IMG/VR virus record: IMGVR_UViG_3300024327_000042
Coordinates: 1-23,163 of that record
Source: a virus
Reading direction: 5' to 3' (one strand)
DNA length: 23,163 nucleotides
The position numbers were made by a program, and so were the translations under genes. Below are positions 3,025-17,570 of the stretch, in pieces (positions within the stretch are counted from its first letter, which is position 1; every line of letters begins with the position of its first letter). The notes under the pieces were generated by a model. That model did no database searches. It had not been told where the DNA came from and was given only the letters and a program-made list of their open reading frames with translations.

Positions 3025-4284
3025 ATGACAAACAATGAGATGAAAAAAGAATATTTGGAAAAACTTTCTGAGCTTTTTGGTGAATCTGATTTTACTATTA
3101 AAGAAGCTAAAGAAAAATTTGAAGAATGGGGTTATGGTGAAGTTAAAAAATCAGACGGCAATTTTGGCTCTGGTTGGATTTATGTTCATACGCATGTTCT
3201 ATGTAAAAATAAATCCCCTAATGGTGGTCGTGGTAAGTATTGTATATCTGAATCCTCAGATGTATTAAAAACAGAAGTTAAAAAATCCATTCAAAAAGAT
3301 ATGGATATTATTAATGAGCCTGTTGTTGTTCCAACTCAAAAAGAAGTCCAACCAGCTGTTTTGTCTATGGCAAAGTTGAAATCTTCTATTGTAAATCTTG
3401 TACCTAAAAAAGACCCTCAATATGTAGCATGGGGTCATTTCAAAGATATTAAATCTATTCTTGAATCAAAAATATTTTATCCGATTTTCGTAACTGGATT
3501 ATCAGGTAACGGAAAAACTTCAATGATTCGTGAAGTTTGTGCTAAACTTAAGCGTGATATGGTAAGAGTTAATATTACCGTTGAAACTGATGAGGACGAT
3601 TTGTTAGGTGGCTTTCGTTTGGTAAATGGTGAAACCGTCTGGCAGGATGGCCCATTGGTTGTTGCAATGAAAACTGGTGCGGTTGCATTGATTGATGAGG
3701 TTGATTTGGCTTCTCATAAAATCATGTGTCTTCAACCTATAATGGAAGGTCAACCAATTTATCTCAAAAAGATAAATGAAGTTGTATATCCTGCGGACGG
3801 TTTCAATATTGTTGCTACTGCAAATACAAAAGGTAAAGGTTCTTCTGATGGCCGTTTTATGGGAACGAACATTTTGAATGAAGCATTTCTGGATAGATTT
3901 GCAGCTACATTTTATCAAGAATATCCTACAGTACAATCGGAAACTAAAATTCTTAAAAAGCAGTTTGCTTTGAAAGAAATGAGTGAAGACGATTTTGTTG
4001 ACAAACTTGTTAAATGGGCAGATGTTATCCGCCGTTCCTTCAAAGAAGGTGCTGTTGATGAAATCATTACAACCCGAAGATTGATTGACATTGTAAAAAC
4101 TCACTCAATCTTTAATAACAAAATGAAAGCAATAACACTTTGTTTGGAACGCTTTGACGATGAAACAAAAGAATCATTTGCTGACCTTTATACAAAAGTG
4201 GATGCTGGTGCTTCTTTTGAAGATATTGCAGCTGAAGCTGGTGTTGAAGTTGAAGAAGAAAACACCGAAGAAGTGTCTTTCTAA
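3025..4284 (+). CDS. cobS: CobS/MoxR-like AAA+ ATPase
   Basis: The 419-residue protein has an AAA+ core: Walker A GLSGNGKT (158-165), Walker B ALIDEVD (221-227, with D224 and E225), a sensor-1-like ATANT segment and an ATPase-type NEAFLDRF motif. This layout is that of MoxR-family ATPases such as cobaltochelatase subunit CobS, which is common in T4-like cyanophages and other marine myoviruses. About 150 residues precede the core and begin with a charged helical segment, longer than in a minimal CobS. The start ATG follows AAGGAG (3011-3016). The partner VWA protein lies just upstream and each gene has its own copy of the same promoter, so equal expression is likely. In the absence of a CobN-like subunit here, a chaperone or remodelling role in phage development is as plausible as cobalt insertion. 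Confidence 0.85.
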   Translation: MTNNEMKKEYLEKLSELFGESDFTIKEAKEKFEEWGYGEVKKSDGNFGSGWIYVHTHVLCKNKSPNGGRGKYCISESSDVLKTEVKKSIQKDMDIINEPVVVPTQKEVQPAVLSMAKLKSSIVNLVPKKDPQYVAWGHFKDIKSILESKIFYPIFVTGLSGNGKTSMIREVCAKLKRDMVRVNITVETDEDDLLGGFRLVNGETVWQDGPLVVAMKTGAVALIDEVDLASHKIMCLQPIMEGQPIYLKKINEVVYPADGFNIVATANTKGKGSSDGRFMGTNILNEAFLDRFAATFYQEYPTVQSETKILKKQFALKEMSEDDFVDKLVKWADVIRRSFKEGAVDEIITTRRLIDIVKTHSIFNNKMKAITLCLERFDDETKESFADLYTKVDAGASFEDIAAEAGVEVEEENTEEVSF

Positions 4285-4673
4285 TGTATAAAATAACTTA
4301 CATAATCATATTTCTATTACTTCATAGTCCTGTATATGGATTTGAAAAACAAGATTGTGAGGTAATGGAATATGAGAGTGGCAGTATAACTCTAGGTTTC
4401 AAAGCAGGTGGCCTCTTTTGGGGAATCGGCCCAGAGGTTACATTCGGTAGTCAATCGGGTGTAGTTTGGAGAGATAATCTTCAATACATGGTTGCTGAGT
4501 ATCAAGAATTGTGTTCCCGATATAATACGGGTAGGATTTCTCAATCAAATTATGATAAAGAGATTCAGCTCATTATTCAAAGAAGTAGAAATTTTACTTT
4601 TAAAATGAATGAGATGTTTAGAGTAAAAAAAGAAACATTATTTAATGAAATGGAAAAGGAGATTTTGAAATGA
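4284..4673 (+). CDS. Small exported protein, unknown function
   Basis: The 129-residue product begins with a typical signal peptide: a Lys, a hydrophobic core of about 12 residues, and a likely cleavage site after VYG (residue 19). The mature part has two Cys residues (DCEV and ELCSRY), which could form a periplasmic disulfide, a Gly-rich segment near residues 38-60 and a charged helical C-terminus. The ATG overlaps the TAA of the CobS-like gene (TAATG), indicating translational coupling. I do not recognise a family. It is followed by two LPP20-like exported proteins, and the three probably form one envelope-directed cassette. A role in altering the host surface or envelope is an inference from location only. 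Confidence 0.8.
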   Translation: MYKITYIIIFLLLHSPVYGFEKQDCEVMEYESGSITLGFKAGGLFWGIGPEVTFGSQSGVVWRDNLQYMVAEYQELCSRYNTGRISQSNYDKEIQLIIQRSRNFTFKMNEMFRVKKETLFNEMEKEILK

Positions 4674-5293
4674 AAAACTATATTATGGCATTTACTATGT
4701 TGCTTTTGAGTACCGCTTGTTCAAGTATTCCAACTATTCCAGATACACCTGCACCTAAAGCACTTGCAGAATATAAAGCACCTGATTGGGTATTAAAGGG
4801 TGGTGGAGCATTTACTGATTCAAGAGGTAAAGCATTCTATGGTGTTGGTTCTGCAACTGGTATTAAAAACTATTCACTACAGAGAACGGTCGCAGATGAC
4901 CGAGCTCGTGGTGATTTGGCAAAAGTGTTTGAGTTTTATATTAGTTCTTTGACTAAAGATTATCAAGCTCATACTACTGCTGGTTCTTTTGATAATTCTT
5001 CCGAAGAGCAGAATGCTGAATCTGCATTGAAAGTGGTTGTATCACAAACTATGCGTGGTGTTGTGATTGTTGACCATTTTGAAATTCCAGAACGCCGTGA
5101 GTTTCTATCTCTTGCACGTTTGGACTATGATGCATTTGAGCATAACATTGAAGTTAATGAAACTTTTCAAGAGTTGCCAAAAGAGGTACAGGCAGAAATC
5201 AAAACGCGTGCTGAAAAACTCCATAACGAAATGGAAGCAGAGTCACGCAAACTTGCAAATGGTGATTGTTGGAGTGGTTCTACAAACTGTTAA
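4670..5293 (+). CDS. LPP20-family lipoprotein
   Basis: The 207-residue protein has a lipoprotein signal peptide with lipobox STAC (Cys17), predicting lipid attachment and anchoring in the host envelope. After a Pro-rich linker, the segment APDWVLKGGG, a GVGSA stretch and an Arg/Ala/Glu-rich helix match the general layout of LPP20-family proteins, which include the Vibrio motility lipoprotein FlgP. The start ATG overlaps the previous stop (ATGA) and is preceded by AAGGAG. Its neighbour downstream begins with a related domain (PAPDWVLGRG), so the two are probably diverged duplicates or partners. LPP20-type lipoproteins are unusual in phages. Possible roles are exclusion of superinfecting phage or modification of the outer membrane, without direct evidence. 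Confidence 0.8.
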   Translation: MKNYIMAFTMLLLSTACSSIPTIPDTPAPKALAEYKAPDWVLKGGGAFTDSRGKAFYGVGSATGIKNYSLQRTVADDRARGDLAKVFEFYISSLTKDYQAHTTAGSFDNSSEEQNAESALKVVVSQTMRGVVIVDHFEIPERREFLSLARLDYDAFEHNIEVNETFQELPKEVQAEIKTRAEKLHNEMEAESRKLANGDCWSGSTNC

Positions 5294-5312
5294 TCTAAAA
5301 TAGGAATTGATT

Positions 5313-6527
5313 ATGCGATATCTACTTACATTTATGATGTTGTTTTTTGTCTCAATTGTTGAAGCATCCCCCGCACCTGATTGGGTTTTGGGAAGGGGTC
5401 ATCCTAGTTATGATTCTTCTCAATACCTGATAGGTGTTGGATACTCAAAAGAAAATACTGTATCTGCTAGTGAATCAGCAAGAGCAGAATTGATTAAGAG
5501 TATCCGAGTCAAAGTCAATTCTACTATTAAGGATTATCGTAGCACCGATAAATCGTTCTCCGAAGCTTCCATTAGTTCGGAGAGTGATTTTCTCCTTGAA
5601 GGTTCTCAAATCAAGGATGGCTGGTATGATGAAGACAAAGAGATTTTTTATTCTCTGGTTGTTATTAAACGACAGTTCGTGTTAGATACTCTTTCTGAAA
5701 TGATTAATAATATTGTTTCAAAGAATAGCTTAACTTTAAGACAAGCTGATACGTTCTATAACAATGGTAAGATTATTAAAGCACTTGTATATTATTATGA
5801 TGGTTATGTTGAAAGTTCTAAACTTCTTCCTTACATTCAGACATATAAAAGTGTTATAATAGTACCTAACAATACAGTTTTGGAAACAAATTATAATCTT
5901 TTATTTAAGGAGAAAATTCAGAATATAGTTGAGCATATCCAGTTAGAAAAGATTAGTGGTTCTGTTAAAGATGAAAATGTTTTATTGAATGTTAAAGCTA
6001 CTTACAAGGGAAGAGGGATTGATAATTTTCCAGTTAAGTTTTTTAGTGTTTATAAACATCATGTTGATCGGGTAATCTGCAAGAGTAATGGTTGTCAAAC
6101 CAAAGCTCCTGTAAAGAGTATTCTAAATAAAAACAATAGTATTTTTATCAAAGCAGTTCCTGATTTTAAAACATTTGAAAAGTATTTTACATATAACTTA
6201 ACTCCAAAACTTTTTGGGAGTTTTGATGTTTTGAGTGTATCATTTAAAGATACTTTACAAAATCAAGAAGTTGTTGCTCGTAACAAAAGATACAAAGCAT
6301 TAAATGATGAATTGGACAATAGACAACAGAGAAACTCTGATATATTAGCAGAACGTATGCAAAGAGAAATTGATGATATGAAAGCTAGTGGTTGTGAGGT
6401 TGGTTGTCGTAGGCCACAAGTACCTATTTATGGTAATAGTCCAAGAAGAAGAGGAAGTATTAATTTTAATATTGGTTTCGGTAAAGGTAGAAATCGTGGT
6501 AATATAAACATTGGAAAGGGGTGGTGA
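5313..6527 (+). CDS. Exported protein with N-terminal LPP20-like domain
   Basis: The ATG at 5313 is preceded by AGGA (5302-5305) at good spacing; an in-frame TTG at 5307 is less likely. The 404-residue product has a signal peptide with probable cleavage after VEA (residue 18), no lipobox Cys, and then PAPDWVLGRG plus a GVGYS stretch, the same pattern as the adjacent lipoprotein. The middle (about residues 130-300) looks like a mixed alpha/beta region without a family I recognise. It is followed by a charged helix. The C-terminal 30 residues are rich in Gly, Asn, Arg and Phe (NFNIGFGKGRNRGNINIG), a low-complexity tail suited to surface or nucleic-acid contact. The gene ends inside the ribosome-binding region of the next gene. 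It is likely a periplasmic or outer-membrane partner of the lipoprotein. Confidence 0.8.
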   Translation: MRYLLTFMMLFFVSIVEASPAPDWVLGRGHPSYDSSQYLIGVGYSKENTVSASESARAELIKSIRVKVNSTIKDYRSTDKSFSEASISSESDFLLEGSQIKDGWYDEDKEIFYSLVVIKRQFVLDTLSEMINNIVSKNSLTLRQADTFYNNGKIIKALVYYYDGYVESSKLLPYIQTYKSVIIVPNNTVLETNYNLLFKEKIQNIVEHIQLEKISGSVKDENVLLNVKATYKGRGIDNFPVKFFSVYKHHVDRVICKSNGCQTKAPVKSILNKNNSIFIKAVPDFKTFEKYFTYNLTPKLFGSFDVLSVSFKDTLQNQEVVARNKRYKALNDELDNRQQRNSDILAERMQREIDDMKASGCEVGCRRPQVPIYGNSPRRRGSINFNIGFGKGRNRGNINIGKGW

Positions 6528-6529
6528 TT

Positions 6530-7237
6530 ATGGCTAGAGAGATGTTGAAGTTGAGAAAAGGTGATTCTGCTATTATGATTAAAACAGATGGTTCAATCGA
6601 ATTAGCAGGAACGGATAATAAACCTTTGATGGATGATAAGGGAATGATTTCTCCTATCATTTTGTTTGCAGCTGCATGGGCAAAGAAAGATCAGAAAGTT
6701 ATTGCACATTTGGTTGATAATTTTAAGAATACGGTGCGTGAGGGTTATTTCGGTGCAGATGCCCAAAATGATTTGAAGAGTATGGAAGTTGAAGCAGCAA
6801 AACAAAAGTTACAAGCTGCTTCTGGTGCAGTAACTACAGAACAACCAAAAATTGAACCTAATATCTCACCAGAGGAACACGCAAAACAAAAAAAAGAAGA
6901 AGAAATATTAGAACAAATTGCAGCAGCTGGTCAAGACCCTCAAGTGTTAAGACAGATGGAGGCAATGAAAGCTGGTGCAAAGAAAACTGAAACCTCTGAT
7001 TTTGTAGGACATAAACAACCTGATTTGAAATTAGAAGAAACTTTTGCATATCAGGATGCAACTCCAGAAGAACAGCAAAAAATGAAAATGGAAGAATCAC
7101 TTAAAATTTTAAATGCTTCTGATGCAAAAACACCAGAAGAAGCAAAAAAAGTTTTAGCTGATGCAGCCGAGAAAAAAGAAGAACCTATTGTTGGTAATGT
7201 AACTATTGAAGAGGAGATTGGTAATGAAAATAAGTAA
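6530..7237 (+). CDS. Conserved-type phage protein, 'DSA..DGSIEL' paralogue A
   Basis: I place the start at the ATG at 6530, three bases after the previous stop and behind AAAGGGG; GTG codons at 6521 and 6524 are alternatives. The 235-residue protein has a compact N-terminal domain containing DSAIMIKTDGSIEL, then a helix-rich part, and a long charged, Gln/Glu/Lys/Ala-rich C-terminal half that is probably coiled-coil or disordered. A second gene in the window (15691-16473) has the matching DSALVVRNDGSIEL in a domain of similar length. The family's function is not known to me. It overlaps the sliding-clamp gene by 14 bases, so a role linked to replication or late transcription is plausible from context only. 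Confidence 0.75.
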   Translation: MAREMLKLRKGDSAIMIKTDGSIELAGTDNKPLMDDKGMISPIILFAAAWAKKDQKVIAHLVDNFKNTVREGYFGADAQNDLKSMEVEAAKQKLQAASGAVTTEQPKIEPNISPEEHAKQKKEEEILEQIAAAGQDPQVLRQMEAMKAGAKKTETSDFVGHKQPDLKLEETFAYQDATPEEQQKMKMEESLKILNASDAKTPEEAKKVLADAAEKKEEPIVGNVTIEEEIGNENK

Positions 7238-7901
7238 AGGCACTATGGATGTATTGAAAAACTATTCTGAAATTAATCAGTCTATTGTTATTAAAGAAGG
7301 GAATGAGATCAAAACCATTTCTGCATTGAAGAATATTCTTTCAAGGGCAGTAGTTAAAGAAAACTTTCCAAAGGATTTTGCAATTTATGATTTGCCTACA
7401 TTCATTGGTTTTCATTCTACTATGTCGGAGCCTGAGTTTGAATTTAATGATGCATCTATGACTCTTGGTGATGCAAAAGGTAAAGGTAAATACTTTTATG
7501 CAGAGCCCTCTTTGGTTGTAACACCGCCCGAGAAAAACATTGATATGCCTGAGAGTGATATCAATTTTGAGTTGAAGAATGATGTGCTTGAAGATATTAT
7601 GAAGAAAGCAAATGTTCTTAAACTTGCTGATATTGGATTAAAGAGTTGTCCTAAATCACAAGGGCTCTATCTGTATGCAACCAATAAGAATAATGATACT
7701 TCAAATGATTATTCTGTACAAGTAGGAACTGGTGCTACAAAGAAATTCAATATTGTCTTTAAGAAAGATAACTTGAAGATTATTCCCGGCGACTATGATG
7801 TTACCATTGCAAATGGTATTTCTCATTTCGTGAATAAAGATGCAAATGTTGAATTGGAATATTGGATTGCCTTGGAAGCTAATTCTGATTATGGTGAGTA
7901 G
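7224..7901 (+). CDS. 45: DNA polymerase sliding clamp (T4 gp45-like)
   Basis: The 225-residue protein (T4 gp45 has 228) begins MKISKGTMDVLKNYSEIN, closely matching the start of T4 gp45. Further matching blocks are DFAIYDLPTFIG and the C-terminal IIPGDYDVTI and YWIALEANSD. The clamp is a trimeric ring that encircles DNA, tethers polymerase gp43 and, in T4, also activates late transcription. The ATG at 7224 sits 7 bases after AGGAG (7212-7216); an upstream in-frame TTG at 7206 lies within the previous gene and is rejected. Two genes downstream is the clamp-loader ATPase gp44. A clamp-binding tail (SLESFFG) is visible at the C-terminus of the polymerase in this window, consistent with a working pair. 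Confidence 0.95.
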   Translation: MKISKGTMDVLKNYSEINQSIVIKEGNEIKTISALKNILSRAVVKENFPKDFAIYDLPTFIGFHSTMSEPEFEFNDASMTLGDAKGKGKYFYAEPSLVVTPPEKNIDMPESDINFELKNDVLEDIMKKANVLKLADIGLKSCPKSQGLYLYATNKNNDTSNDYSVQVGTGATKKFNIVFKKDNLKIIPGDYDVTIANGISHFVNKDANVELEYWIALEANSDYGE

Positions 7902-10114: not shown

Positions 10115-11026
10115 ATGAATAAACTTAAATATAGTGAAATGTTTTATTCCCTCCAAGGAGAAGGAAGGTACGTTGGTGTGCCTTCCGTTTTCCTTCGGTT
10201 GTTTGGTTGTAACTTTGAATGTCGTGGCTTCGGTCAAGATAGAGATAAATCCAAATGGTTACCTGAAGCTCAGATGCCTCACAACCAAAACCATCCTAAT
10301 GTAAAAACAATTAAAGATTTACCAGTTCCTCATGTTGGGTGTGATAGTTCATTCAGTTGGGGAAAGAAGTGGGGTCATCTAGCTGAGAATGATGATATTG
10401 AAACCATCATTAAAAAGATGGATGAGCTTACAAACTGGTATGGTGAAAAGGAAAGAATGGAAGGTGATTTGTCACCTGTATTAAAACAAGATGATGGAGC
10501 TCACTTAGTTATTACTGGTGGTGAACCATTGCTTAAAGGTTTTCAACCAGCAGTAAGAGAATTAATTACAAGTCCATTATTGAAAACAAGATATGTTACA
10601 TTTGAAACTAATGGTACACAAATCTTTACACCAGAAAATTCACCAGAGTATATGCAAAAGTTTGGTGTAGGTAAGAATTGTGGAATTACTTGGTCTGTAT
10701 CACCTAAACTTTCCAATAGTGGTGAAAGTTTTAGTGATGCAATTAGACCAGAAGCATTGGCATCATATAATGCATGGCCTTATTCATATTTGTATTTGAA
10801 GTTTGTTGTTAGAGATGCATTTGATATAATAGAAGTAGAACAAGCATTAAAAGAGTATGATAACGCAAGAGTTAATATAGATGCAGTATATCTAATGCCT
10901 GAAGGTGGTACAAGTGATGGTATGAAATTAACAGAATATGAAGTAGCACAACTAACATTAAAACATGGTTATAAGTATAGTCCTAGACTACATATAAATC
11001 TCTTTGGAAATGAGTGGGGTACATGA
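10115..11026 (+). CDS. queE: 7-carboxy-7-deazaguanine synthase QueE (radical SAM)
   Basis: The 303-residue enzyme turns 6-carboxytetrahydropterin into 7-carboxy-7-deazaguanine (CDG) using S-adenosylmethionine and a [4Fe-4S] cluster. Visible features are FYSLQGEG near the N-terminus, GCNFEC (C32, C36), CDSSFSW (C76) and the SAM-binding TGGEP segment, followed by FETNGTQ. Normal QueE binds its cluster with Cx3Cx2C; here the third Cys is separated by 39 residues (Cx3Cx39C), and the residue at the usual third position is Phe39. The CDSSFSW segment matches the 'CDTxYSW' that normally carries the third Cys, so this is an insertion and not a lost ligand. The gene has its own promoter with a predicted leaderless start and opens the queuosine-type pathway operon. 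Its stop overlaps the next gene. Confidence 0.93.
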   Translation: MNKLKYSEMFYSLQGEGRYVGVPSVFLRLFGCNFECRGFGQDRDKSKWLPEAQMPHNQNHPNVKTIKDLPVPHVGCDSSFSWGKKWGHLAENDDIETIIKKMDELTNWYGEKERMEGDLSPVLKQDDGAHLVITGGEPLLKGFQPAVRELITSPLLKTRYVTFETNGTQIFTPENSPEYMQKFGVGKNCGITWSVSPKLSNSGESFSDAIRPEALASYNAWPYSYLYLKFVVRDAFDIIEVEQALKEYDNARVNIDAVYLMPEGGTSDGMKLTEYEVAQLTLKHGYKYSPRLHINLFGNEWGT

Positions 11027-11493
11027 TGGCAGGAAAAGATGTGAAAAAAAGAGGTCGTTCAGGAGCAAGAGGTATACCTAAAGTTGATAAAGTACTAGAT
11101 AAGGAGATGTTTATAGATAAATATACAGATGAAAACGGAAAACATATTCGTCTTGGAAAGTTTAGACTTTCACATGAAGTTAATAATTTATTAGCAAATA
11201 TAGCTTATCAGTTAAAAGTTTCAAGGTCAGAATTGGTAAGAACAATATTAGAAACTTATGTAAGACATTATCAAGAAGCTAAAGAAGTAAATGCCAGACC
11301 ATATTTAACACCAGCACTTTCTATTGAGTCTTGGTTACAAGAAAGAAATGATTTTACTATTTTAATGAATCAACTCAAAGAACAAAATAGGTTGATTCAA
11401 GAAAACTCAAAATCACCAGAAGTTAAAGTGATGTCAACACAAATGGCTATACTAGCCCAAATGTTAAACCTTACAAATAAGAATGTGATATGA
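11023..11493 (+). CDS. Ribbon-helix-helix DNA-binding protein
   Basis: The start is ATG at 11023 (overlapping the queE stop as ATGA) or the next codon, ATG at 11026. The 156-residue product has a basic N-terminus (about residues 4-20, many Lys, Arg, Gly), then a ribbon-helix-helix domain: strand near 42-49, helix A around 51-63, and helix B containing the typical SRSELVRTILETYV (67-80). The C-terminal half is helical and Gln/Asn-rich, possibly for oligomerisation. Such dimers bind DNA operators through the beta ribbon. Placed between queE and the rest of the pathway, it could regulate the modification operon, for example at promoter P3. That target is inferred, not shown. Confidence 0.85.
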   Translation: MMAGKDVKKRGRSGARGIPKVDKVLDKEMFIDKYTDENGKHIRLGKFRLSHEVNNLLANIAYQLKVSRSELVRTILETYVRHYQEAKEVNARPYLTPALSIESWLQERNDFTILMNQLKEQNRLIQENSKSPEVKVMSTQMAILAQMLNLTNKNVI

Positions 11494-11957
11494 ATAAATA
11501 TAATTATTATTATGATGAGTACTTAAAAGATGTTAAAGATATAGTAGAAAGATATAAAAAAGTTCCTAGTCTACATATTGTTGGTGTCCATCGTGGTTCA
11601 CTACCTATAGCTGTTCATTTAAGTAATGTGCTTGAATGTCCCATGAGTATTGTTAAGTTTCAACACATGGATGGTAATGATAAAAAAGCAGAGTGGTTAT
11701 TAAACCTTACAGATGATGTTAGTATTAGACCAGACAAATGTAAACAGTTTTTTCCTAGATTACTTGTTATAGATGATGTTTATGATACTGGTACAACCTT
11801 TAGAGCTATTAAAGAATTACCAGAATTTCAAAATAATCCTGACTATTGTTTACTTGCATTATTTGGAAATAAAAATGATGATGATGTTTCTTATATACAT
11901 GAACAACTTTATAGGTGGATTGTATATCCTTGGGAAAGAGTAGCAGGTGGATTATGA
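11490..11957 (+). CDS. Type I phosphoribosyltransferase, purine-salvage-like
   Basis: The 155-residue protein carries the PRPP-binding signature LLVIDDVYDTGTT (91-103, acidic pair D95-D96, loop D99-T103) and the N-terminal VGVHRGSLPIA loop. Its end, IVYPWE, resembles xanthine-guanine phosphoribosyltransferases. These enzymes join a purine base to PRPP to make the nucleotide. It overlaps both neighbours by ATGA junctions, inside the deazaguanine operon. Since a DNA transglycosylase (14378-15625) releases guanine when it inserts the modified base, this enzyme could convert that guanine to GMP and so refill the GTP pool used by FolE. Use of a 7-deazapurine base is another possibility. The substrate cannot be fixed from the sequence. 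Confidence 0.87.
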   Translation: MNKYNYYYDEYLKDVKDIVERYKKVPSLHIVGVHRGSLPIAVHLSNVLECPMSIVKFQHMDGNDKKAEWLLNLTDDVSIRPDKCKQFFPRLLVIDDVYDTGTTFRAIKELPEFQNNPDYCLLALFGNKNDDDVSYIHEQLYRWIVYPWERVAGGL

Positions 11958-12400
11958 AATATCAAAGTACAAAAACTTATGGTAATGATAGAGGTTTGAG
12001 TTGTTGTTTTAGGCAATGGAGAGCAGACCATAGCCATTGTAGCTTATTACACGGATATAGTCTGGGATTTCGTTTTGTTTTTGAATCAGATACTTTAGAT
12101 GAAAGAAATTGGGTTTATGATTTTGGTGATTGCAAATGGATTAAAGAATTTCTGGAAGATACTTTTGACCATACCTTAGTTATTGCAAGTGATGATCCTG
12201 AGGTAGAATTATTTAAAGGTTTATATGAGAAAAAGGTGTGTAAGCTTTGGGTATTGGATAATGTTGGTTGTGAAAAGTTTGCAGAACTGGTATATGTATA
12301 TGTAGCACCAACCCTTAAAGAAAAAACAGAAGGGAGAGTTAGTTTACATAGTGTTGAGTGTTTTGAGCATGGAGCTAATAGTGCAATTTATTTAGGTTAA
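11954..12400 (+). CDS. queD: 6-carboxytetrahydropterin synthase QueD
   Basis: The 148-residue protein belongs to the PTPS/QueD family: CSLLHGYSL (29-37), WVYDFGDCKWIKEFL and FDHTLVI are in the expected places. QueD converts dihydroneopterin triphosphate, the FolE product, into 6-carboxytetrahydropterin for QueE. The catalytic Cys is probably C29. The usual zinc motif HGH is HGY here (H33, Y35), and an extra His pair (H26, H28) precedes the Cys, so the metal site differs from textbook QueD. Similar 'FRQW...HGY' sequences occur in a divergent QueD branch as far as I recall, so activity is likely kept. The ATG at 11954 overlaps the previous stop (ATGA); an in-frame ORF extension to 11915 lies within the upstream gene and is rejected. 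Confidence 0.88.
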   Translation: MKYQSTKTYGNDRGLSCCFRQWRADHSHCSLLHGYSLGFRFVFESDTLDERNWVYDFGDCKWIKEFLEDTFDHTLVIASDDPEVELFKGLYEKKVCKLWVLDNVGCEKFAELVYVYVAPTLKEKTEGRVSLHSVECFEHGANSAIYLG

Positions 12401-12418
12401 TTGAGAGGAGTTTATATA

Positions 12419-13087
12419 ATGAAAATATCTGAAAAGATTAAAGCTGCATTGACTGATGGTTATTTAGCTAACGATACAATCTATGATGTTATTAATGATG
12501 ATGATAGAAAAGAACTTATAGAAGAGGTTGCAGAATCATTTCAAGGTGTATTGAATTCTTTGGTTATAGATACAAAGAATGACCACAATACACAAGAAAC
12601 AGCAAAACGTGTAGCTAAAATGTTTATCAATGAGATTTTTCGTGGTAGATATTATCCCCCACCCTGTGTTACAGCATTTCCCAATGCAAAGCAGTATGAC
12701 CAGATTTATATGTCTGGCCCTATAACAATTAATTCAACTTGCGCACACCATTTCCAAGCAATTTCTGGAAAGGCATATGTTGGAATCTTCCCTGGCCAGA
12801 AGGTTATTGGTTTATCCAAGTTCAATCGCATGGTTGATTGGGTTGCATCAAGACCACAAATTCAAGAAGAAATGACTGAACAAATCGCAGATATGATTGA
12901 GAAAGAAACTGAAGCAAAAGGTGTAGCTGTTATTGTTAAAGCAGAACATTTTTGTATGACAGCTAGAGGTGTCAAAGAGCATGAGAGTGATATGGTAACA
13001 TCTGTTGTTCGAGGTATTTTCCGTGAAGAACCAGCAACAAAGGCCGAGTTCTTTTCTTTGTTAAGTAATATGAAAGGGATGAGATAA
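12419..13087 (+). CDS. folE: GTP cyclohydrolase I FolE
   Basis: The 222-residue enzyme opens and rearranges GTP to dihydroneopterin triphosphate, the first step of folate and 7-deazaguanine synthesis. All key residues are present: C108-A-H110-H111 in STCAHHF and C179 in EHFCMTARGV, matching the zinc ligands and catalytic His of the E. coli enzyme. Length equals the bacterial type. The ATG at 12419 follows GAGGAG (12405-12410); an upstream TTG at 12401 is unlikely. It is the only gene of the operon with a short gap and a strong Shine-Dalgarno site in front, which suggests high translation. The downstream gene starts on its stop codon (TAATG). Confidence 0.95.
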   Translation: MKISEKIKAALTDGYLANDTIYDVINDDDRKELIEEVAESFQGVLNSLVIDTKNDHNTQETAKRVAKMFINEIFRGRYYPPPCVTAFPNAKQYDQIYMSGPITINSTCAHHFQAISGKAYVGIFPGQKVIGLSKFNRMVDWVASRPQIQEEMTEQIADMIEKETEAKGVAVIVKAEHFCMTARGVKEHESDMVTSVVRGIFREEPATKAEFFSLLSNMKGMR

Positions 13088-13599
13088 TGACAGCGTATAG
13101 TAAAAAGATTTCAAATTTTTCTATGAAGCAAACATATAAAAAAAACACTTATGATGATAAACGTAGTCGAGATGTTATGTGTGATGACCTTCAGAGAAGG
13201 TTTCCTAATTTAGATATAAGAATAAATGGAAAGTATGATTTTTGTGATTTGGCTGCTTATGACAAAGATGGTAATTTGGTATGTTTTTTTGAATTAGACC
13301 ATACCAATTCACAAACTTTACATTGGCCATGGTATTCTATACTTGAAAGGAAAATAGAAAGTATGAATGAAATGAACCAAATTGCACCCGTAAATATGGT
13401 TTGGATAACTTCTCAATTAACACAATATAGAATGTTGCCATTGTTTCTTGTACCAAATTGGAAAAATTATCCTTTAAAAGTGATTCCATATAAAAAAAAT
13501 GAAGATATTGAAAACTTGGTACATCCAGACGATTTTCATATCAGAATACCTTTTAAAGATTTAAAGACAAATCCTATTTATACTGTAGGAGAATATTAA
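13087..13599 (+). CDS. Unknown protein in deazaguanine operon, possible PD-(D/E)XK fold
   Basis: I do not recognise the family of this 170-residue protein. Residues 50-71 read as a beta hairpin with D51, D54 and then E69-L-D71, spaced as in PD-(D/E)XK nuclease-like domains, except that Asp replaces the usual Lys of the final motif. The N-terminus is basic (KKIS, YKKN, DKRSRD), and residues 76-84 are Trp-rich (HWPWY). The start overlaps the FolE stop (TAATG) and the stop overlaps the queC start in the same way, so it is tightly coupled to the pathway. It may handle DNA during modification or be a decayed nuclease. The fold assignment is low confidence; the gene itself is secure. Confidence 0.75.
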   Translation: MTAYSKKISNFSMKQTYKKNTYDDKRSRDVMCDDLQRRFPNLDIRINGKYDFCDLAAYDKDGNLVCFFELDHTNSQTLHWPWYSILERKIESMNEMNQIAPVNMVWITSQLTQYRMLPLFLVPNWKNYPLKVIPYKKNEDIENLVHPDDFHIRIPFKDLKTNPIYTVGEY

Positions 13600-14381
13600 T
13601 GGTAAACATGGTAACTAGTGGTAAACAGAAAGCTACTGGTAAATCTGTTTTATTATATTCTGGTGGCATGGATAGTTTGATGTTTGACTATTTAATGAAG
13701 CCTGATGTATTATTGTATATTCCAACTGGCAGTGAATATGAAATGATAGAAAGTAGTAAAATACAATTACTTGGTAAATATGGTTATTTGGATGAAGATA
13801 AATTGGTTGTTTTATCCCGTGTTTTAAATTTAAGTCAGTTTGAACGTGATGATGCAATCGTTCCGAATCGTAATGCACACTTGATGTTGTTGGCTTCTAT
13901 GTATGGTGAAAATCTAATACTTGGAAGTGTTCAAGGAGATAGGTCATTTGATAAAGACCCAATTTTCTATGATAAAATGACAGACTTGTTAAATCATATG
14001 TGGAAGGAACAACATTGGACTGAGGAACGTGTTTTTAAAGTTAGTTCTCCATATAAAGATAAAACAAAGACGGAGATTGTTAAAGAGTATCTGGAAAAGG
14101 GTGGAAGTGCAGACGCATTACTGCTTTCATGGAGTTGTTATGATCCACAATCAAGATTTCTTTTAGACCCCGAAAGGGCTTGTGGATGGTGTAAACCATG
14201 TTTTCGTAAATGGATTTCACTTCATAATAACAATATAAATATTCCAGAAGATTATTATGCAAACAATCCATGGGAAGCTCCATGGCTTGAAAAGTTAATT
14301 CCTTCTGTACTTGAAAAGAATTATCGAGGAAAAGAAGATTATGATTGGTGTGAAGCCTTAACAAGTAAAGGAGTTATATGA
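13599..14381 (+). CDS. queC: 7-cyano-7-deazaguanine (preQ0) synthase QueC
   Basis: The 260-residue protein is a PP-loop ATPase with LLYSGGMDS (18-26) and the C-terminal zinc site C180-x14-C195-x2-C198-x2-C201, both typical of QueC. QueC uses ATP and ammonia to turn CDG into preQ0. No fused amidotransferase or QueF-like reductase domain is present, so preQ0 is the expected end product of this gene set. The segment VPNRNAHL (88-95) fits the family's conserved 'PxRN' motif. The start uses a TAATG junction and the stop an ATGA junction with the transglycosylase. An internal TATAAATA (14234) looks like a late-promoter core but lies in coding sequence. Confidence 0.93.
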   Translation: MVNMVTSGKQKATGKSVLLYSGGMDSLMFDYLMKPDVLLYIPTGSEYEMIESSKIQLLGKYGYLDEDKLVVLSRVLNLSQFERDDAIVPNRNAHLMLLASMYGENLILGSVQGDRSFDKDPIFYDKMTDLLNHMWKEQHWTEERVFKVSSPYKDKTKTEIVKEYLEKGGSADALLLSWSCYDPQSRFLLDPERACGWCKPCFRKWISLHNNNINIPEDYYANNPWEAPWLEKLIPSVLEKNYRGKEDYDWCEALTSKGVI

Positions 14382-15625
14382 AAGACGCAATATATATACC
14401 AGCTTATAGTGATGGTTTAATGACATTGTTGGAAAAGGATGATAAACATATTAGAGAAGATTATCAAACTGATTTTGATAAAAAGAAATCGTTAAGGATT
14501 TATAAAAAAGATAATGATTCTTATTTCAAGAATTATTTTATGTTGATCTCTGCCGGTACATCACATAAAAGAGAAAACTTTAGAAAAACAATACAAGCTG
14601 AAGATGCTATGGTATTTGTTGATAGTGGAGGATATCAGTTAGCACATTCAACGGTTAATACTGTAAAATATACAGATGATGTAGCATTGAAATGGTCAGA
14701 ACAGAATGGTGATATATTTCCAATTCTTGATAGACCGACATTTACGCTTGGAATGATGAGAGATGGAAAACCAGTGTCACCTTATAAAGATTATCAAGAA
14801 TGTTTGGATTTGTCAGTAAACTCTGCAAGACATTATGCAGAAAATCGTACACGTTCAGATGCAAAAATCTTAAATGTTATACAGGGTCAAACCATACCAC
14901 AGGTTAAGAAGTGGTATGATGAAATAAAGAAGTATCAGTTTGAGGGTTGGGCATATGGTGGTACTAGAGGCAATTTAGGTCGTATTGTACCTGCAATATT
15001 GTTTTTAATCAAAAATGGTGAGTTTGATAGATCAGAATGTAAGTATTTTCATATTTTTGGTGTTACTTCAAATGAGAGTATGATTTATTTTCAATATCTT
15101 CAAATGTTGTTAAATAAGGCTGGTATTGATATACAGCTTACATATGATTCTACTTATTGGAATAGAACTTGTGTTTTTGGTGGTTATTTTACAGAAGCTA
15201 GATATATTACTGGTACAGGTATGGCATCTATGAGTTGGCCTAATACCATTGATTATAAAAAATTATCAAAAGATTTTAAGATGCCATGTCATTGTCCAAT
15301 TTGTGAAGATTTAGGAGATGTTTATTCATTTTTTAATCATTATAAGACTGATAAAGATGGAAATGAAAAAATATCATTTAGAGATTTTAATATGAGTATA
15401 GCTTATCATAATTTATATTTGCAATTAGAGTATCTTGAAAATGTTACAAGAATTTTAAAGTCAAATATGAAAGAAATTTATTTAGAGTTTTTTCCAAAGA
15501 AAATATATGACAACTTGATCTTTTTAGATGAAGTATTCAATAATATGTCAAAAGATTGGGAATGTGAGTTAAATAATAGATTTTTAAAAATTGAAGATAA
15601 TGCAGATTTGCTTAAGTTTATGTGA
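14378..15625 (+). CDS. dpdA: DpdA-type DNA guanine transglycosylase
   Basis: The 415-residue protein belongs to the tRNA-guanine transglycosylase superfamily: FVDSGGYQL (80-88, catalytic D82), NVIQGQ (166-171), AYGGT (192-196), a FHIFGVT segment, and TYDST (255-259), whose D257 is the likely nucleophile. A zinc site C304-x-C306-x2-C309 with H322 follows. Bacterial TGT acts on tRNA, but phage members located with preQ0 synthesis genes are DpdA enzymes, which swap guanine in DNA for a 7-deazaguanine base and so block restriction enzymes. The gene is last in the queD-folE-queC operon and starts by an ATGA overlap. Action on tRNA is the alternative but the sequence lacks the usual TGT nucleophile context, and the phage setting favours DNA. 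Confidence 0.88.
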   Translation: MKDAIYIPAYSDGLMTLLEKDDKHIREDYQTDFDKKKSLRIYKKDNDSYFKNYFMLISAGTSHKRENFRKTIQAEDAMVFVDSGGYQLAHSTVNTVKYTDDVALKWSEQNGDIFPILDRPTFTLGMMRDGKPVSPYKDYQECLDLSVNSARHYAENRTRSDAKILNVIQGQTIPQVKKWYDEIKKYQFEGWAYGGTRGNLGRIVPAILFLIKNGEFDRSECKYFHIFGVTSNESMIYFQYLQMLLNKAGIDIQLTYDSTYWNRTCVFGGYFTEARYITGTGMASMSWPNTIDYKKLSKDFKMPCHCPICEDLGDVYSFFNHYKTDKDGNEKISFRDFNMSIAYHNLYLQLEYLENVTRILKSNMKEIYLEFFPKKIYDNLIFLDEVFNNMSKDWECELNNRFLKIEDNADLLKFM

Positions 15626-16914: not shown

Positions 16915-17385
16915 ATGAATGAGAATGTTAAATGGTCAATCGAAGACATGATAGAAGTTCGATTGAAAGAAGATGATGATTTTTTGAAAGTTAAAGAAAC
17001 CCTCACACGAATTGGAATAGCATCACGCAGGGAAAAGAAATTATTTCAATCTTGCCACATACTCCACAAACAAGGTAAATATTATATTGTTCATTTCAAA
17101 GAGCTCTTTGCTCTTGATGGTAAACCTACTAATATTTCCGAGAACGATCTTGAACGTAGAAATACAGTTGTAAATCTTTTAAACGAATGGGACTTGGTTG
17201 AAATTGTTTCACCCGAAAAAGCACAACCAACTACTAGTATTCGTCAAATGAAAATTTTACCTTTCAGTGAAAAGTCTGAATGGGATTTACAAGCTAAGTA
17301 TACAATTGGTAATGTTTCTATTAAAACCACAAAAGAACCTAAAGAAAAACCTTTTGAAATAAATGATGATGATTTTGCTTTATGA
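16915..17385 (+). CDS. regA: RegA translational repressor
   Basis: The protein contains MIEVRLKEDDDFLKVKETL and QSCHILHKQGKYYIVHFKE, both nearly identical to T4 RegA, and a YTIGN motif near the equivalent of the T4 C-terminus. RegA binds the ribosome-binding regions of many early mRNAs, including its own and clamp-loader genes in T4, and stops their translation. The ATG at 16915 has AAAGGA before it and adds 11 residues to the T4 start, which corresponds to the internal ATG at 16948. The total is 156 residues against 122 in T4; the extra C-terminal tail is Lys/Glu-rich and ends in an acidic patch. The stop overlaps the next gene (ATGA). Confidence 0.93.
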   Translation: MNENVKWSIEDMIEVRLKEDDDFLKVKETLTRIGIASRREKKLFQSCHILHKQGKYYIVHFKELFALDGKPTNISENDLERRNTVVNLLNEWDLVEIVSPEKAQPTTSIRQMKILPFSEKSEWDLQAKYTIGNVSIKTTKEPKEKPFEINDDDFAL

Positions 17386-17570
17386 TTAAAAGTATTTTAT
17401 TATGTATGTGTTTTATTTTGTTTACTGGATGTTCATCTATCGGAGAACTTGTTTTAAATACAGCTGCAGGTGCTCTTGGAAATATGTTAGATAGAAGAAT
17501 TGACGAACCAACTGAAAATGAAAAGGAGAAAAAAGATGAATGTGAAGATTGTAAAGATGATAAGCGGTGA
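17382..17570 (+). CDS. Tiny lipoprotein
   Basis: This 62-residue protein has a short signal peptide and a lipobox LFTGC (Cys17), then SSIGELVLN, a small hydrophobic Ala/Gly segment and a charged tail of Glu, Lys and Asp with two Cys (CEDC). It should be lipid-anchored in the host envelope. It starts by an ATGA overlap with regA and its tail overlaps the next gene by 35 bases. Function is unknown; small phage lipoproteins sometimes act in superinfection exclusion or lysis. Placement in the replication operon gives no direct hint. Confidence 0.78.
   Translation: MIKSILLCMCFILFTGCSSIGELVLNTAAGALGNMLDRRIDEPTENEKEKKDECEDCKDDKR

Follow-up and report, generated by a model that had tools for sequence, protein, structure and literature searches.

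In Helicobacter pylori, the LPP20 lipoprotein HP1456 shares an operon with HP1454, a larger secreted protein whose first domain is similar, and both interact with the outer-membrane ring proteins FlgP and FapH (PMC11756786). Beneath the outer membrane, FlgP assembles into concentric rings, which are coupled to PflC, a protein derived from HtrA (PMC12222027). Here, we analysed a comparable set of genes carried by a virus: P1, P2 and P3, at positions 4284-6527 of the IMG/VR record IMGVR_UViG_3300024327_000042 (positions 1 to 23,163, i.e. the whole stretch of 23,163 nucleotides, hereafter the window). A preliminary description of these letters had recognised three exported proteins. In addition, we find that the trio is a bacterial module of Nitrospinota origin and belongs to the core of one phage clade, and that its P3 has been stripped of domains. 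The LPP20 family is already known; the literature we searched held no phage-borne three-protein module from Nitrospinota, and no use of phrases such as 'Nitrospina phage' or 'Nitrospinota viruses'.

The system most similar to the trio is an LPP20 module of Nitrospinota (e.g. L034), for which we found no description in the papers searched. It encodes gene-linked homologues of all three proteins, with a P2 that is 54-57% identical to that of the window. It differs by the presence of secreted protease genes between and beside its trio, by a mostly divergent gene order and by a P3 that is about 700 aa long and has a lipobox as well as the domains FlgO and DUF4384. In the H. pylori operon, too, an LPP20 lipoprotein is combined with a larger secreted protein that has a first domain of similar fold, both exported and envelope-associated. 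However, it has no known P1 homologue, it is linked to the FlgP/FapH rings, and its similarity to the phage proteins is very low (Lpp20, 5ok8, is the best LPP20-family PDB match by profile, at E 0.1 for P2 and E 0.02 for P3). FlgP of the Campylobacter basal disk and FlgT of Vibrio are LPP20/SHS2-fold proteins at the outer membrane too, and the HtrA-derived PflC of Campylobacter parallels the protease of the Nitrospinota module. These systems are flagellar, whereas neither the phage set nor its cellular source shows flagellar linkage. Finally, the LPP20-LpoB-(COG3014-like)-LPP20 clusters of gamma- and deltaproteobacteria and Nitrospirota contain distant homologues of P2 (about 23-45% identity) and of the N terminus of P3, but they include LpoB (PF13036), lack P1 and form separate lineages in the P2 tree. 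Among phages, outer-membrane lipoproteins for superinfection exclusion, e.g. Llp of T5, are single, small and usually variable between related phages; we know of no sequence relation between them and the trio.

Origin of the trio in Nitrospinota

The best cellular matches of P2 in a scan of 84,980 genomes were in Nitrospinota (53-57% identity), followed by Desulfobacteria, Nitrospirota and Myxococcota at about 40%. In the P2 tree, the phage proteins form one clade (100/100), which is nested in the Nitrospinota P2 by forks supported at 99/95, 96/85 and 95/94. Because of this nesting, and as judged from the P2 tree, the trio was captured once, from host to phage, and its source was Nitrospinota. 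A contig filed under a Flavobacteriales metagenome-assembled genome (DTRI01000151.1) also encodes a module of the Nitrospinota type and clusters with Nitrospinota in the tree; it is likely to be mis-binned.

The three genes travel together in cells. P1 is present in 7 of the 77 Nitrospinota genomes, P3 in the same seven and one more, and strong P2 matches in the same seven and two more, with parallel copy numbers. The probability of the overlap between P1 and P3 is about 3e-9 (8/C(77,7), computed by hand with genomes taken as independent, a value made optimistic by their relatedness). Beyond Nitrospinota, P1 was found in 2 of 246 Planctomycetota genomes; in the Desulfobacterota group, 1 of 247 genomes had a marginal match. 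In one Planctomycetota genome, P1 and P2 are joined by an LPP20+DUF4384 gene that resembles P3, without proteases. Co-occurrence in Nitrospinota and in this last genome suggests that P1, P2 and P3 are functionally linked.

At the Nitrospinota locus, P3 is divergent from an array made of P2, a trypsin-like protease and P1. Wherever a P1-bearing copy is clearly readable, the array keeps this order, with P3 either divergent or collinear (one genome has P2-protease-P1-P3 in a single direction). Nearby genes code for a lipoprotein and a CHAT-TPR protein, or for a caspase-like protein (by eye), and for a CHASE2-sigma54 protein; CHAT or caspase genes together with CHASE2 genes are near most copies. 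Unlike the Nitrospinota module, the window has no protease between P2 and P1, whose genes are adjacent. The module is largely exported and uncharacterised, and one Nitrospina genome has as many as three of them (L034:1-12561, L036, L056); its content is a trypsin-like protease, a CHAT-TPR protein, a lipoprotein, a CHASE2-sigma54 regulator and LPP20/FlgO/DUF4384 proteins.

The phage P3 is, on domain comparison, the cellular protein with domains removed, first FlgO and then DUF4384. In Nitrospinota, P3 is a lipoprotein with an LPP20 domain, a helical region and an immunoglobulin (Ig)-like region in addition to FlgO and DUF4384. The P3 found at a second phage site (see below) is without FlgO, while the window type is without FlgO, DUF4384 and lipobox, and ends in a tail rich in Gly, Asn and Arg.

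A core feature of one phage clade

The preliminary description had proposed looking for the trio in other phages and in bacterial genomes. Besides the Nitrospinota module, this search returned P2/P3 in about 20 IMG/VR contigs, and tblastn of P2 and P3 against 50,697 deposited phages found nothing. The polymerase and CobS of the window are closest to those of T4-like cyanophages and pelagiphages (48-62% identity). We defined a close clade by a CobS at least 61% identical to that of the window over most of its length, which retained 14 of 80 CobS loci. P1 lies directly 3' of CobS in 14 of these 14 loci, against 0 of the 66 others. Behind P1, P2-P3 are present in eight close-clade loci, absent from three and unreadable in three. 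The gene that follows in the window, g7, has P3 upstream in 10 of the 10 contigs found to carry it. To the extent that the contigs reveal it, the trio belongs to the core genes of this clade. One contig of this clade, with the order CobT-CobS-P1-P2-P3-g7-clamp, is filed under an Acidimicrobiaceae metagenome-assembled genome (PBHE01000046.1) and is a mis-binned fragment.

P1, P2 and P3 are all under purifying selection. The median pairwise ratios of non-synonymous to synonymous substitution rates (dN/dS) are 0.23, 0.15 and 0.38, respectively, and range from 0.12 to 0.30 in neighbouring genes, all of them rough values given that synonymous sites are close to saturation in many pairs. Since the trio recurs in many contigs and is under purifying selection, it is not a chance feature.

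Some phages carry P2-P3 at a second site, between an aldehyde dehydrogenase gene (with a small open reading frame) and a gp1-kinase-like gene (by eye), where most P3 proteins are predicted lipoproteins that carry DUF4384 at the C terminus. We considered that the two sites might come from two unrelated phage groups and dropped this idea: a 74-kb contig with the first site terminates in the genes that precede the second, and in sister phages the first site has retained a long P1 but no P2-P3. A single phage family most likely accounts for both sites, and we infer that P1 at the first site and P2-P3 at the second occur in one genome; they are known from separate contigs, none of which spans both. 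In the simplest reading, the ancestor had a long P1 at the first site and P2-P3 at the second, and P2-P3 moved into the P1 gene in the lineage of the window. The long P1 (272-320 aa) of three sister phages without P2-P3 at the first site has an extra C-terminal tail, which shares an aromatic last residue with the tail of the window P3. The best pair of tails has p 0.0006, uncorrected for 33 comparisons, and it is only suggestive of a derivation of the P3 tail from that of the long P1.

Two contigs of the clade encode secreted trypsin-like (HtrA/DegP-like) proteases (L141:11784-12866 and L144:15310-16458), one of them a predicted lipoprotein. They are 28-36% identical to the protease of the Nitrospinota module, a likeness at the level of the family only. 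The statement that these phages are without a secreted protease was dropped once the two genes turned up. A subtilase gene lies at L140:15286-16887.

The three proteins

Two LPP20-like domains had been proposed, and both hold. The curated Pfam cut-off for LPP20 (PF02169) is 25.9 bits; P3 scores 32.8 bits and P2 18.6 bits, below the cut-off, while the Nitrospinota orthologue of P2 (57% identical) scores 28.3 bits and the profile alignment of P2 with P3 has E 2.4e-6. The lipobox cysteine of P2 is invariant in eight phage proteins and followed at position +2 by S, T or A, never by Asp, which points to a predicted outer-membrane lipoprotein. P3 starts with an A-x-A-like signal peptide, followed by the LPP20 domain (residues 22-118), a helical segment and an Ig-like beta region (about 209-283), with a further helix ahead of the tail. 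The signal peptide of P1 was read by eye, and eight relatives have small or A-x-A-like residues ahead of the cleavage point. P1 has no Pfam, NCBIfam, PADLOC or significant PHROG match and is an unnamed protein family. None of the three proteins or their cellular homologues matched the known anti-phage defence systems of PADLOC-DB.

The host of the clade

The host is very probably a member of the Nitrospinota, because two metabolic proteins of the phages are so similar to those of this phylum. On the 74-kb contig (L141, IMGVR_UViG_3300020477_001932), a UrtA-like protein is 84-91% identical to those of about 11 Nitrospinota genomes; its gene, coding for a periplasmic binding protein of the urea-transporter type, adjoins one for glyceraldehyde-3-phosphate dehydrogenase (L141:3362-5674). 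On a contig with the second site, the alpha subunit of a 2-oxoacid:ferredoxin oxidoreductase is up to 89-92% identical to Nitrospinota proteins. Nitrospinae use urea, and N. gracilis has a reductive tricarboxylic acid cycle (PMC7005884). The genes at L025:172-4613 (IMGVR_UViG_3300027779_002373), for the alpha and two beta-like subunits of the oxidoreductase (Pfam) and for NifU-like, ferredoxin-like and IscA-like proteins (by eye), suggest metabolic genes of this cycle in a phage of nitrite oxidisers. Nitrospinae are the main marine nitrite oxidisers, and the trio marks a clade of T4-like phages that most likely infects them.

Possible functions

The preliminary description had suggested that the trio alters the outer membrane or the flagellum of the host. 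The first part is supported by the signal peptides, the lipobox, the LPP20 domains and the exported cellular module, which argue for an envelope location and an outer-membrane-related role; the flagellar part found no support. We tentatively favour, at somewhat less than even confidence, an LPP20 scaffold that would be made early under the outer membrane and would remodel or reinforce the envelope of the infected cell. This is suggested because P2 and P3 match the architecture of HP1456 and HP1454, and because LPP20 relatives form outer-membrane arrays. A Foldseek search with the P3 model lists HP1454 at rank 15 (probability 1.0, E 0.03, low template-modelling scores). P2 would be anchored in the inner leaflet of the outer membrane and self-assemble into an LPP20 array, like its relatives FlgP and Lpp20. 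P3 would dock onto this array via its own LPP20 domain, with the Ig-like domain facing the periplasm, and P1, probably disulphide-bonded, would be an accessory. Such an early scaffold would reorganise and reinforce the outer membrane and the periplasm, keep the envelope intact and closed until lysis, and plausibly also shield the cell against superinfecting phages. The trypsin-like proteases of the clade would be a further sign of investment in the periplasm.

Several points weigh against the scaffold. AlphaFold, run on eight-row alignments, gave an unusable model of P2 (pLDDT, the predicted local distance difference test, of 37) and a weak one of P3 (pLDDT 59), and thus no support for assembly; neither model was good enough for a fold comparison with Lpp20 (5ok8). 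Besides HP1454, Foldseek with the weak P3 model gave mostly Ig-like domains, and no match at E < 0.001. Early production is read from gene position only, and the host is assigned from gene relatedness. In H. pylori, deletion of hp1456 left resistance to bacitracin, a readout of the outer-membrane barrier, unaffected (PMC11756786).

The trio might instead be a decoy. The phage proteins would then poison, in a dominant-negative manner, a cellular envelope-surveillance module of homologous LPP20 proteins, a CHASE2-sigma54 regulator and secreted proteases of the trypsin-like and CHAT/caspase kinds; the phage would have retained the scaffold parts while losing the protease as well as the FlgO and DUF4384 domains. 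This would fit the order kept in Nitrospinota, the CHAT/caspase and CHASE2 genes near most copies, the loss of FlgO from both forms of the phage P3 (and of DUF4384 from the window form), and the fact that P3 is the fastest evolving of the seven genes compared. However, P1, P2 and P3 were not seen in the Nitrospinota genomes closest to the phages by UrtA and oxidoreductase (such as G060, G061, G064 and G075), genomes that may be incomplete; this absence from the putative host lineages counts against a trio that targets a resident copy. Moreover, phages of the clade have their own secreted trypsin-like protease, the trio has no PADLOC match and the cellular module is not known for anti-phage action. 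We regard the decoy as a weaker rival of the envelope scaffold, and as unlikely.

We give a similarly low probability to superinfection exclusion as the sole role, in which the trio would block receptors or genome entry of other phages and have no housekeeping role. The position in the replication region, after CobS and ahead of gp45, speaks for it, as does a P2 that is predicted to be an outer-membrane lipoprotein, given that phage exclusion lipoproteins are a known class. Yet exclusion genes are typically variable, unlike a set of three proteins with deep conservation, core status and a strongly constrained P2. A general envelope role is likelier than a variable exclusion gene because the trio is core and old; exclusion of other phages, also raised in the preliminary description, is possible and could be part of the benefit.

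Less probable still, the phages might operate a copy of a bacterial envelope-sensing module for themselves, in which the LPP20 scaffold, P1 and the HtrA-like protease would control the periplasm and the stress or death response of the infected cell. If true, the trio would be the first case of a phage that carries a relative of a periplasmic surveillance system linked to CHASE2 and CHAT. A role in lysis, with P2 and P3 helping to break the outer membrane late in infection, is improbable. P2 is a predicted outer-membrane lipoprotein, as are o-spanins, and at the second site P2-P3 lie no more than about 2 kb away from a gene that looks, by eye, like one for a secreted cell-wall hydrolase, but the first site is in the replication region and other candidate lysis genes lie elsewhere (by eye). 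The PHROG spanin match of P2 has only E 0.21, and P1 does not complete a spanin pair: its signal reads as cleavable in eight relatives, rather than as the membrane anchor of an i-spanin. Flagellar interference, in which the flagellum would be blocked or altered by P2 and P3 as mimics of FlgP or FlgO, is very improbable in spite of the domain names LPP20 and FlgO and of the flagellin found in 7/7 module-bearing Nitrospinota genomes, since flagellin is present in 60/77 Nitrospinota genomes against 7/77 for P1 and the module, no flagellar genes adjoin the module loci, and FlgO is the very domain that the phages discarded.

It is important to highlight that the trio exposes a bacterial envelope module that is uncharacterised and patchily distributed, and that combines proteases and CHAT/caspase proteins with a CHASE2-sigma54 regulator. 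Should the trio indeed control the envelope of the infected cell, the function of this module and the control of nitrification by phages become testable.

Organisation of the locus and other genes

P1, P2 and P3 are co-directional and head to tail (Table 1), with TAATG and ATGA junctions among the open reading frames from CobS to P3. The start of P3 was taken as the ATG at 5313, the listed open reading frame beginning with the TTG at 5307. The trio is surrounded by a T4-like replication region, with the gp45 clamp, gp44, the gp43 polymerase and a UvsX-like gene (by eye). Hence, both the row of a signal-peptide protein, an LPP20-type lipoprotein and a larger exported protein behind CobS and its setting among phage replication genes are as first described. 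In the cyanophage S-PM2, gp45 is directly 3' of CobS with nothing between, and HTVC008M and Mosig have other genes at that place.

Table 1. Genes of the cassette that contains the trio, with positions in the window.
Feature	Positions	Strand	Remarks
CobS-like AAA+ ATPase	3025..4284	+	PHROG 249, E 6.5e-113; left cassette border
P1, 129-aa predicted secreted protein	4284..4673	+	C25 and C77 invariant and motif VAEYQELCSRYNTG conserved in the P1 alignment; no known family
P2, 207-aa predicted LPP20-type lipoprotein	4670..5293	+	Lipobox STAC, C17
P3, 404-aa predicted secreted protein with N-terminal LPP20 domain	5313..6527	+	LPP20 domain at residues 22-118
g7, conserved protein without assigned function	6530..7237	+	3' of P3
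gp45 sliding clamp	7224..7901	+	PF09116 and PHROG 223; right cassette border

Further along the window, a cluster at 10115-15625 encodes a QueD-like PTPS, a GTP cyclohydrolase I and QueC (Pfam), with QueE-like and DpdA-like proteins (by eye), and probably serves 7-deazaguanine DNA modification. Proteins of Pseudomonas phages are only 25% identical to the DpdA-like protein. Sister phages carry genes for fatty acid desaturase and transaldolase (L184:6866-8708, L149:4644-5480, L028:1823-2620). Lastly, a 62-aa predicted lipoprotein of no family is encoded at 17382-17570, and related small lipoproteins lie at the equivalent place in sister phages (L140:532-795, L160:5463-5747).

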